From positions 1-8,197 of the forward strand of contig JALWSI010000047.1 of assembly GCA_027080315.1 (NCBI GenBank): a stretch of 8,197 nucleotides of DNA, written 5' to 3'. A program made the position numbers and the translations under genes. Numbering within the stretch: the stretch's first letter is position 1; each line of letters opens with the position of its first letter. Below the pieces are notes generated by a model that had not been told where the DNA came from, did no database searches, and saw nothing but the letters and a program-made list of their open reading frames with translations. This DNA is from a bacterium (GTDB taxonomy: Bacteria > Thermosulfidibacterota > Thermosulfidibacteria > Thermosulfidibacterales > JALWSI01). Positions 4,401 to 7,744 of the stretch are shown piece by piece.

Positions 4401-5126
4401 GTGTTGAGAGAGAATAATCAATTGACCCCCCAGGACCAGAAAGGGGTATGGAGGATGTTCAACTCCATTGCTCCCTATTATGACTTTCTTAATCACCTGT
4501 TGAGCTTAAACATAGACCGCTACTGGCGTAGGTTTGCCGTTGATCTTCTGCTGGCGCATTCTCAAGAAAGGGGGATCTTTCTTGATCTTGCCTCGGGAAC
4601 CGGAGATGTGGGACTCACCATACTGAGCCGTAGTGATGCCAAGGTTGTAGGGGTGGATCCTGCAACGAAGATGCTGGCCATATTCAAGAAGAAGGCAGAG
4701 AAGAAGGGGCTTGAAGAGAGGGTCTTTGAAGTGGTGGGTGATGGACTCTCGTTGCCCTTGTCAGACTCTTCTGTTGATGGCGCCTTGATCGCCTTTGGTA
4801 TCAGAAACATACCAGATAGGGCATCTGCCTTGAAGGAGATGGAGAGGGTTGTAAGGCCCAATGGGGCTGTGGTGGTACTTGAGTTTTCTAAGCCTGAGGG
4901 TTTTTTTGGACTGGTGTACGACCTTTACTTTCACAGGATCCTCCCCTTCTTAGGGAGGCTTATCTCAAAGGACCCGAGTGCTTACTCGTATTTACCCAAG
5001 ACGGTTGAGGAATTTCCACCTCCACCTGCATTTGCTCATCTTATGGAGCAGGTTGGCTTCTTAAAGGTTAGGTACTGGCGCTTGACACAAGGAATTGTTA
5101 CCTGCTATTTAGGAATCGTTTCTTGA
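4401..5126 (+). CDS. ubiE: Demethylmenaquinone C-methyltransferase (MenG/UbiE)
   Basis: This 241-residue SAM methyltransferase would add the ring methyl group of menaquinone, the last step of the pathway, on the cytoplasmic face of the membrane. Both UbiE/COQ5 signatures are visible. The first is APYYDFLNHLLSLNIDRYWR (residues 24-43), and the second is RNIPDRASALKEMERVVRPN with VVVLEFSKPEG after it. Motif I is LDLASGTGDVG (61 onward, Asp62), and Asp86 in GVDPATKML would bind the ribose. The length is typical. The start is GTG 4401 or TTG 4404. The pathway link to mqnB in the same gene run supports a menaquinone rather than ubiquinone role, because mqnB belongs only to menaquinone synthesis. 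It is the last gene of the packed block, and I saw no terminator hairpin after it, so transcription may continue into the cytochrome gene. Confidence 0.9.
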   Translation: MLRENNQLTPQDQKGVWRMFNSIAPYYDFLNHLLSLNIDRYWRRFAVDLLLAHSQERGIFLDLASGTGDVGLTILSRSDAKVVGVDPATKMLAIFKKKAEKKGLEERVFEVVGDGLSLPLSDSSVDGALIAFGIRNIPDRASALKEMERVVRPNGAVVVLEFSKPEGFFGLVYDLYFHRILPFLGRLISKDPSAYSYLPKTVEEFPPPPAFAHLMEQVGFLKVRYWRLTQGIVTCYLGIVS

Positions 5127-5150
5127 TTTATAACCTTGATCGTCTATAAT
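5123..5150 (+). promoter_or_regulatory. Sigma70-like promoter candidate
   Basis: TTGATT (5123-5128, 4 of 6 to TTGACA) is separated by 16 nt from a perfect TATAAT (5145-5150). The -35 element overlaps the menG stop codon. Transcription would start near 5157 and give a leader of about 90 nt ahead of the cytochrome gene. A second TTGACA at 5161-5166 has no convincing -10 partner. The call rests on sequence match only. Confidence 0.45.
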
Positions 5151-5194: not shown

Positions 5195-5232
5195 AATTAA
5201 AGATGGTAGTTGATAAAAATCGAAAATCCCGA

Positions 5233-5240
5233 AAGGAGGA
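5233..5240 (+). promoter_or_regulatory. Strong ribosome binding site for a TTG-start gene
   Basis: AAGGAGGA lies 9 nt before TTG 5250. The strong match supports TTG as the start. The encoded signal peptide then begins MKDLIRV, with its basic residues in the right place. Confidence 0.85.
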
Positions 5241-5249
5241 TTTATAACA

Positions 5250-5711
5250 TTGAAGGATTTAATAAGAGTATCGTTGGTGATTGGGTTGGGAGTTCTTCTT
5301 CTTGCTGTGAACCCTGCTGCCGCAAAGAAGAGATACGTTGGCTCAAAGGCGTGCCAGGAGTGTCACGAAGAGGAGTATAACAACTTCTTCAAGTACGCAA
5401 AGAAGGCCCATTCTTACGAAAGCGTAGAGAAGATGAAGAAGGATCTCAGCGAAGAGGAGTTTGAAAGGTGTTTGAAGTGTCACACCACGGGTTATGGGGA
5501 GCCAGGGGGGTTTAAGTCTGTTGAGGAGACCCCTCAGCTTAAAGAGGCTGGCTGCGAGGTGTGTCACGGACCAGGGAGCAAGCATTGTGAGTCTGAGGAT
5601 CCTGAGGACATTAAAGGTAAACTAAATTTTCATGAGTGCGAGCGGTGTCACACGAGAGCTATCAGAGAAGAGTTTGATTTTAAACCCTTGATTCACGGGG
5701 GAGCCCATTAA
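5250..5711 (+). CDS. Periplasmic tetraheme c-type cytochrome, c554-like family
   Basis: This 153-residue secreted protein has a Sec signal peptide (hydrophobic core about 7-20, cleavage likely after Ala25 in NPAAA-KK). It has four CxxCH heme c attachment motifs: CQECH (35-39), CLKCH (74-78), CEVCH (102-106) and CERCH (130-134). HGPGSKH after the third motif and KKAHSYES after the first resemble the cytochrome c554-type multiheme fold, where extra histidines serve as distal heme ligands. The last residues, KPLIHGGAH, supply two more. It would be matured in the periplasm by the cytochrome c assembly machinery and act as an electron carrier or redox reporter; no catalytic site is evident. It lies 11 nt upstream of a chemoreceptor with its own CxxCH motif and probably shares its transcript. 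This pairing suggests a shared redox-sensing role, by inference. Confidence 0.92.
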
Positions 5712-5722
5712 AGGAGGGGAGT

Positions 5723-7693
5723 ATGCTGAGACTGAATAGACTATGGGCAAAGGTGGTTATCCCCACTGGGATAGTCTTATTAGTGGTTGTTTCATTGATC
5801 ACACTTATGAACACGAAAAGGCAGACGAAGGCTTTGATACTCCAACTTGCAGAGAAGGGAAAAGATTCTGCTGTTATAGTAAAGAACTCTGTGGTCTCTG
5901 CCCTTACTGTGGGAGATAATGAAGCTGTTAAAAAGACCTTTTATTTGATTGAGAACGAGATCCCAGATATGAACCTTTTTATCTGTGACTCTGAAGGAAG
6001 AGTCTCCTTCACCTCTGAGAAAGGGGCTGAAGGTAAAAGCCTCTCTTCTTATATGAACGATAAGACCTATGCGGCGCTATCTAAACTTTTGGGTTCAGGA
6101 ACCTCCACTCATGACTATTTTAGGGAGACAGTTAACGGAAAACCTTACATTACAGTGATTAAGCCCTTTTTGAATGGAAGCCTATGCTACCACTGTCATG
6201 GAACACAGAAAAGGGTCTTAGGGGCCATAGTGGTTCAGGCCCCTGCCGCCACGGCCATGGCAGCTGTTGATGCTGCAAGAGAGAACAACATAATCATGGG
6301 GATTGTCACCGTCCTAGTTGTGGGTATCGTTCTCTTCTTGATTGTTATCTTCTTTGTGAACAAGCCTGTGAACCATATCCTTGAGGTTCTTCAGGCCTTT
6401 GCCAAAGGAGATCTTTCAAAGAAGATAGAGGTTAATAGTAACGACGAGATTGGCCAGATGGCAGATGCTTTGAAAGATATGCTGAATGGAGTGATAGGAG
6501 AGGGCCAGTCTCTTAAGCATGGCATCACTATTCCCTTCTTCATGGTGAACAAGGATCTGGTGATAACCTTTGCCAATAAGGCCTCAAGGGCCAAGGTGGG
6601 TGCTAAAGCCAAAGATGTTCTGCACCCTGATGCATACAAGCTGGTTGAAGAGTGTATGAAAACCGGAGAGATGGTTACCGGTGAGGTTTCCATTGCAGGG
6701 GGAAAGATTGTGATAGCATCAACTGCTTCTCCTCTGAGAAACCTTGAAGGAGAGATCATTGGTGCCATGGGCATAGGAGTGGACATCACCGCCCAGAAAG
6801 AGCAGGAGCGTATGGCTGAAGAGCACAGCCGCTTCCTCTCTGAGGTGGCGGAGGAGGTCACCGATGTGGCCAACCAGGTGGCTTCTGCTGCAGAAGAGAT
6901 GTCTGCCATTATGAAAGAGATGGTTTCAGGGGCTGAAGAGCAGTCTCAGCAGGCCAGCCAGATAGCAGCGGCTGTTGAACAGATGAGCGCCACCATTATG
7001 GAGATGGCAAACAACGCCCGGGATGCTGCCAATGTTGCAGAGGAGACCAAGAAGAAGGCCGGTGAGGGAAGCGAGGTGGTGCACCAGTCCATTGAGAGCA
7101 TCAACAGGACCGCTGAGGTCTCTGCCCAGGTGGCGAGTTCAATAGAGGAGCTTGCCGAGAGAAGCAAAGAGATTGGTAAGGTGATAGAGGTTATCAGCGA
7201 TATCGCCAGCCAGACCAACCTTCTTGCCCTGAACGCCACCATAGAGGCGGCTTCTGCCGGGGAGGCGGGCAAAGGATTTGCCGTTGTGGCCTCTGAGGTG
7301 AAAGAGCTTGCAAAACAGACGGCGGATTCCACCGGTAATGTGCAGCGGGCCATTGAGAACATCCACCAGGGCGTTGCCAAAGCGGTGAAGTCTATGGATG
7401 AGGCCAGCAACGAGGTAGGTAAGGCCACCAGCTTTGCCAACGAGGCAGGAGCCGCATTGATGGAGATCCTTGAGAGGGTTGATAGAGCCGTTGATGCCAT
7501 ATCCCAGATTGCTACAGCCACTGAAGAGCTTTCTGCTGCGGCAAACAACGTGAGTGAAAACGTGATGAACATCACCAGCATAAGCGACGAAACGGCCAGG
7601 AGCGCCAAGGAGTCTGCCGTTGCCAGCGAGAGACTGGCAGAGTTGTCTGAGAGGTTGCTGGCCACAGTTAGGAAGTTTAAAGAGAGAGGATAG
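5723..7693 (+). CDS. Methyl-accepting chemotaxis protein with periplasmic heme c sensor and internal PAS domain
   Basis: This 656-residue chemoreceptor has membrane segments at about 11-29 and 190-212 enclosing a periplasmic domain of about 160 residues, probably a single Cache/PAS-like fold. Just before the second membrane segment sits CYHCHG (Cys155, Cys158, His159), a c-type heme attachment motif on the periplasmic side, followed by [13 protein letters not shown] linker follows (about 213-265), then a cytoplasmic PAS domain (about 270-360) with [16 protein letters not shown] and ending [11 protein letters not shown]. From about 370 to the end is the signalling coiled coil, whose hairpin tip [14 protein letters not shown] starts at residue 497 and binds CheA/CheW. 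No CheR-docking pentapeptide is at the C-terminus. The receptor likely senses redox state, a small ligand or gas at the heme, as proposed for heme-containing Geobacter chemoreceptors. AAGGAGG lies 5 nt before the ATG. Confidence 0.95.
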
Positions 7694-7711: not shown

Positions 7712-7744
7712 AGGGGAGGGCAGATCGCCTTCCCCTTTTATTTT
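7712..7744 (+). terminator. Rho-independent terminator after the chemoreceptor gene
   Basis: AGGGGAGGGC (7712-7721) pairs with GCCTTCCCCT (7727-7736) as a 10-bp stem with one G-U pair and a 5-nt loop. The tract TTTTATTTT follows. It starts 19 nt after the chemoreceptor stop and should end the cytochrome-chemoreceptor transcript. Confidence 0.88.

Follow-up and report, generated by a model that had tools for sequence, protein, structure and literature searches.

A c554-like tetraheme cytochrome encoded beside a heme-c chemoreceptor: a conserved gene pair with a probable role in periplasmic sensing

The stretch of DNA analysed here (8,197 nucleotides, hereafter the window) carries on its forward strand a gene for a small multiheme cytochrome (5250–5711, with a TTG start) followed by a gene for a chemoreceptor (5723–7693), the coordinates of both being confirmed from the open reading frames. 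Each gene has its own Shine-Dalgarno sequence: AAAGGAGG (5232–5239, +) is read 10 nt 5' of the TTG of the cytochrome gene, and AGGAGGGG (5712–5719, +), that of the receptor gene, lies within the 11-nt gap (5712–5722) between the two. A preliminary description of this DNA had proposed that a terminator closes the unit, and we indeed found an intrinsic terminator at 7712–7743 (+), consisting of a 10-pair stem (7712–7736; z = -2.0 versus shuffles) and a T-rich tail. A promoter-like site at 5123–5150 did not rise above chance (3 such sites found in the region versus 2.6 expected). The flanking genes are housekeeping genes, ubiE upstream and an rsmE-like gene downstream. CheW-family genes and genes for cytochrome c assembly are present in the window's own genome, which would allow both proteins to be produced in functional form. 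This genome also has three chemoreceptor-like genes in tandem (G000:C209; L004, L005, and L006), of which L004 encodes a large periplasmic domain without a CxxCH motif.

The first gene encodes a 153-residue protein that we place in a c554-like subfamily of secreted tetraheme c-type cytochromes. Its N-terminus is signal-peptide-like, with a single hydrophobic segment and an AxA-type cleavage region, and the four CxxCH motifs earlier counted in a secreted product encoded 11 nt before the receptor are all present: CQECH (residues 35–39; 5352–5366), CLKCH (74–78; 5469–5483), CEVCH (102–106; 5553–5567), and CERCH (130–134; 5637–5651), each on the + strand and each invariant in our alignment A4. Four such motifs did not arise once in 20,000 residue shuffles of the protein. 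The match to the Pfam Cytochrome_C554 family (PF13435; 1.2e-18) scored 68.3 bits against a cut-off of 20.8 and covered model positions 1–84 of 84, which together with the four motifs makes the protein a member of that family. It scored far under the cut-off of every NCBIfam equivalog that it touches, including that for c554 of ammonia oxidisers (NF043010; 39.6 bits versus 400). The best NCBIfam model by E-value for the product of 5250–5711 was NF041198, the C-terminal part of UshA-like (seleno)proteins, so a domain related to this tetraheme one also occurs as a fusion with a nucleotidase-like protein. Its relatives of solved structure are cytochrome c554 and larger multiheme cytochromes; the match to c554 of Nitrosomonas europaea (1bvb; 2.8e-11), likewise a four-heme protein of the C554 family, spans ~95 alignable positions, but the window protein is shorter (~128 residues when mature versus 211) and differs in its C-terminal part. 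The gene setting differs as well, as genes for cytochromes of the window type adjoin sensors, unlike the c554 gene of N. europaea, which we take to adjoin that for hydroxylamine oxidoreductase.

A profile built from the window cytochrome and 12 relatives (A4) delimited the subfamily: across 395 genomes from the phylum of genome G030, 44 members scored 143–218 bits and every other match 95 bits or less. Among 55 distinct members, His is found without exception at the four heme His positions, at position 112, and at the C-terminal position 153, whereas His54 is kept in 37. We regard His153 (5706–5708, +; the final residue of a GGAH end), His112, and His54 as candidate distal heme ligands on the basis of this conservation. 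Since there are at most three such candidates for four hemes, at least one heme may be without a distal His ligand, and may thus be open. The C-terminal end is strongly conserved around the motif F-x-[FY]-[KR]-P and the last His. An AlphaFold2 model of the cytochrome from 13 sequences had a pLDDT of 51, which is too low for heme ligation or packing to be read from it.

The second gene encodes a 656-residue chemoreceptor (MCP) that, by Pfam and hydropathy, runs from a transmembrane helix through a heme-c sCache sensor to a second transmembrane helix, HAMP, PAS, and MCPsignal. The presence of both a HAMP domain (6356–6487, +; PF00672, 4.1e-11, 43.5 bits) and an MCP signalling domain (7124–7582, +; PF00015, 3.4e-43, 147.9 bits) marks it as an MCP, and a cytoplasmic PAS domain (PAS_4) is located at 6533–6799 (+; PF08448, 2.8e-9). 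There are two hydrophobic segments (residues 4–32 and 186–223), and the sole CxxCH motif, CYHCH (155–159), lies between them and therefore on the periplasmic side; hydropathy and motif thus agree with the preliminary description, which had assigned one CxxCH to the periplasmic domain. A single CxxCH arose by chance in 1 of 5,000 residue shuffles of the receptor. The periplasmic sensor domain (residues 31–190; 5813–6292, +) was modelled by AlphaFold2 with a pLDDT of 88.3, and a Foldseek search with this model ranked 3b42 (GSU0935) first and 3b47 (GSU0582) seventh, the high rmsd of the match being consistent with the domain swapping reported for these crystals. Further Cache relatives of the model were found at Z 10–14, and the fold is related to those of WalK, LuxQ, and dCache receptors. 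A profile search of the PDB with the sensor returned the structures of GSU0935 and GSU0582 as its sole matches. Against the Geobacter heme-sensor family PF21563 the isolated sensor domain scored 31.6 bits (cut-off 27) and the full-length protein 25.7 bits, just under the cut-off, and PF21563 was the first match for all 16 members of our alignment A6. In the model, the motif CYHCHG (155–160; 6185–6202, +) occupies a short helix (123–129 in model numbering) between two Cache strands (110–120 and 135–144). This arrangement, with CXXCH on a helix that interrupts the Cache fold between two of its strands, is given as the hallmark of the sCache_heme proteins (DUF3365/Tll0287; PF11845) in PMC12889525, although the score against PF11845 was only 16.1 bits versus a cut-off of 24.1. 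Sequence and model together support the view that the periplasmic domain is a heme-c sensor with a putative covalent heme, and the PF21563 match and the fold (3b42, 3b47) favor kinship with the heme-c chemoreceptors of Geobacter.

The top fold and sequence matches, GSU0582 and GSU0935 of Geobacter sulfurreducens (PF21563; 3b47 and 3b42, respectively), resemble the window receptor in layout: a single-Cache domain carrying one covalent heme c lies in the periplasm between two transmembrane helices, and a HAMP domain and an MCP output follow. They differ in the heme motif (CQSCH there versus CxHCHG here), and neither shares with the window receptor its PAS domain or the dedicated tetraheme cytochrome gene 5' of it; the available part of the review PMC8396549 makes no mention of a partner cytochrome for either. 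A parallel to the PAS arrangement is DcrA of Desulfovibrio vulgaris Hildenborough, which by its description in that review also combines a heme-c periplasmic domain with a cytoplasmic PAS and an MCP output, and which has been proposed to sense redox potential and oxygen (PMC8396549). For the sCache_heme proteins, the results and discussion of PMC12889525 likewise do not mention a separate tetraheme partner gene.

A further difference lies in heme ligation. In our profile alignment to 3b47, Leu61 of the window receptor (5903–5905, +) occupies the place of Met60, the distal ligand of the reduced heme in GSU0582 and in the PF21563 type; Met60 was assigned as the 3b47 residue aligned with the Met conserved among the paired sensors and numbered backwards from His143 as given in PMC8396549. 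GSU0582 and GSU0935 (potentials of -156 and -251 mV, respectively) are reported to couple heme redox state to ligation and signalling, with oxidation freeing the Met ligand and this being thought to turn the sensor on (PMC8396549). Since Met60 is replaced by Leu, the Geobacter Met-ligand redox switch cannot operate identically in the window receptor, and its output step must differ in detail from that of GSU0582 and GSU0935. Met is kept at this position in 44 of 55 paired sensors. Leu was seen in the window and in L055, L056, L097, L099, L100, L102, L115, and L118, all in one clade, and the nine-row clade that holds the window sensor is Leu-bearing (support 100/99). That the Leu-bearing sensors form a single clade suggests that a change in heme ligation occurred once; the heme of this branch may be water-bound, open, or differently ligated, judging from the residue change.

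The preliminary description had treated the two genes as a functional unit and held that rare adjacency of the two families in other genomes would refute its reading. In a broad scan of a genome collection with one genome per species (84,980 species) using a two-sequence profile, we identified 17 loci at 50–61% identity, chiefly in MAGs of sulfate reducers. One of these, L053, was left out because its sequence runs out at the contig edge, in a start like that of the L051 receptor; at 15 of the remaining 16 informative loci a heme sensor is encoded immediately downstream, the spacing ranging from -1 to 61 nt and most junctions being of 9–12 nt or overlapping. The sole exception, L067, has a cytochrome without a sensor gene. 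At L067 (151–525) there is room downstream yet no sensor, and the downstream sequence looks repetitive and may represent an assembly fault. In the 395 genomes of the G030 phylum, every one of the 44 subfamily cytochromes (from 41 genomes) has a sensor-profile match downstream on the same strand, at 92–668 nt from the cytochrome match, and every one of these sensors carries the C-x-H-C-H-G motif; the two surveys overlap at a few contigs (e.g., L061 is G030). Assuming a 1.5-kb target on one strand and the observed density of 55 sensors over 395 genomes (~3.2 Mb each), we roughly estimate the chance of a sensor neighbour at ~3 in 100,000 per cytochrome. In the reverse direction, a cytochrome lies beside 42 of 55 sensors (≥79 bits). 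Among the 13 unpaired sensors, two are at contig ends in G101, leaving 11 truly unpaired; six are CxHCHG proteins in genomes with the cytochrome elsewhere (the one scanned, L184, being a histidine kinase) and five bear other motifs (CYNCHA, CYQCHD). Adjacency was thus the rule, contrary to that refuting condition, and we regard it as strongly supported by these gene neighbourhoods that the two genes form a functional unit, a module conserved in dozens of bacteria from many lineages.

The pairing has limits, both in distribution and in kind. A survey of 386 genomes across other phyla gave no cytochrome above 93 bits and no sensor above 63 bits, except in the window's genome and G030. Ten weaker and more distant sensors from outside the G030 phylum had no multiheme cytochrome gene within 1.5 kb, and so we rejected the notion that heme-c sensors in general have a habit of adjoining cytochromes. 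The pair was also absent from the eight sampled order-mates of the window's genome, its nearest sampled genomes, and for this reason it likely reached the window's lineage horizontally.

What is constant in these pairs is the cytochrome and the sensor domain only. The cytoplasmic output varies: of the 44 pairs we assign 38 to MCPs and four to hybrid histidine kinases (L114, L116, and L165 by Pfam, L117 by likeness to L116), the other two outputs being cut or frame-broken. The paired MCPs are themselves of several architectures, and several have no PAS domain; the cytoplasmic PAS earlier offered as a second input is therefore present in the window receptor but is best seen as accessory and outside the conserved pair. 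As the output changes while the cytochrome and sensor domain persist, the functional contact between the partners is most likely on the periplasmic side, to judge from domain composition. Two features of individual pairs deserve mention. On the reverse strand of L117 (1–1344; genome G360), the pair of cytochrome and sensor kinase is immediately preceded by the end of a reading frame that contains 13 CxxCH motifs, and the paired MCPs of L120 and L123–L126 have a GFEEF-like tail after a charged linker, which resembles the pentapeptides to which CheR or CheB is tethered.

Pairwise distances among the cytochromes correlate with those among the sensors (r = 0.78, permuted maximum 0.13), a value that relatedness alone would raise, and the nearest relatives of the window proteins are L097 and L100 in both the cytochrome tree and the sensor tree; the cytochrome evolves more slowly than its sensor partner. 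In addition, we found a second, divergent clade of 11 pairs in which c554-like tetraheme cytochromes scoring 80–95 bits lie beside sensors with a CxKCHG motif. Six of these (L192–L197: G204:C4, G097:C1 twice, G195:C17, G076:C2, and G410:C52) have the cytochrome directly 5', five more cases were found by coordinates (G133, G114, G179, G150, and G131), and the outputs of the three CxKCHG sensors scanned are histidine kinases.

Taken together, the pair very probably cooperates, reporting either redox conditions or a heme-binding gas outside the inner membrane. Because of the adjacency at 44 of 44 cytochromes and at 15 of 16 informative loci, the differing outputs, the correlated distances, the second clade, and the redox behaviour reported for GSU0582, GSU0935, and DcrA, we think it reasonably probable that the two proteins make up one sensory module, in which a soluble periplasmic tetraheme cytochrome would serve a heme-c Cache chemoreceptor and couple its heme to the periplasmic electron pool. 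The cytochrome would dock onto the periplasmic domain of the receptor and exchange electrons with the one heme c there, whose oxidation state would in this way track the pool of periplasmic electron carriers; a change of heme state would then shift the sensor helices, and the signal would pass through TM2 and HAMP to the signalling tip and bias CheA, the outcome being movement along redox or electron-acceptor gradients. A redox role of this kind is the best reading of the pair, though an unproven one.

The strongest competitor is gas sensing, in which NO, or some other small molecule, would be the ligand of the receptor heme, with the cytochrome either handling the same gas or re-reducing the receptor heme for binding. 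The missing Met60 ligand keeps NO sensing alive, as it would leave the distal site of the window sensor open, and one of the cytochrome hemes may be open as well, given the small number of conserved distal His. The cytochrome is moreover related to Nitrosomonas c554 (see above), a protein with documented NO reductase activity. A signalling-type sCache_heme protein, that of P. azotoformans, is reported to behave as an NO sensor that binds NO strongly, releases it slowly, and forms no stable complex with O2 (PMC12889525), but this is one protein from another branch of the family. An open site is also not family-wide, since most paired sensors keep the Met, and a freely diffusing gas would leave the constant neighbouring cytochrome unexplained; we consider gas sensing unlikely overall. 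Somewhat less likely still is that the cytochrome acts purely as a docking partner in the manner of a periplasmic binding protein, as LuxP does on LuxQ; the signal would then lie in how the redox or ligand state of the cytochrome governs its binding, and electrons would not have to enter the receptor heme. Some of the receptors to which the Cache fold is related (WalK, LuxQ, dCache receptors) have partner proteins, and the conserved cytochrome C-terminus could form an interface, but the heme motif of the receptor is invariant in pairs, and this points to an involvement of the heme. That an ordinary electron-carrier gene came to stand before a chemoreceptor by chance, as the housekeeping flanks and the lack of any conserved third gene seen with the pair might allow, is very improbable given adjacency without exception in another phylum and matching trees, and we rejected it on the co-occurrence counts.

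The component parts of the proposed redox module are of known kinds, but we did not find the obligate two-gene module described in the searchable literature. The literature searched, which covered few subscription papers, held no description of the cytochrome-receptor pairing, and prior notice of it is possible. DVU0700 and DVU0702 of D. vulgaris may be one such pair; DVU0700 is annotated under chemotaxis and DVU0702 as a cytochrome c family protein. As a broader and more tentative proposal, to which we give slightly less than even weight, such pairs may be a widespread class of redox receptor built from two proteins. In these, heme-c Cache sensors would depend on a dedicated multiheme cytochrome as an obligate input subunit, through which interchangeable taxis or kinase outputs would be wired straight to the electron pool of the periplasm. 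Studies of heme-c chemoreceptors have dealt with the isolated domains, and a cytochrome always encoded alongside names a concrete physiological partner for them. Such a module would tie the behaviour of sulfate reducers and related anaerobes to electron transport, and would explain the reuse of one input by taxis receptors and histidine kinases.
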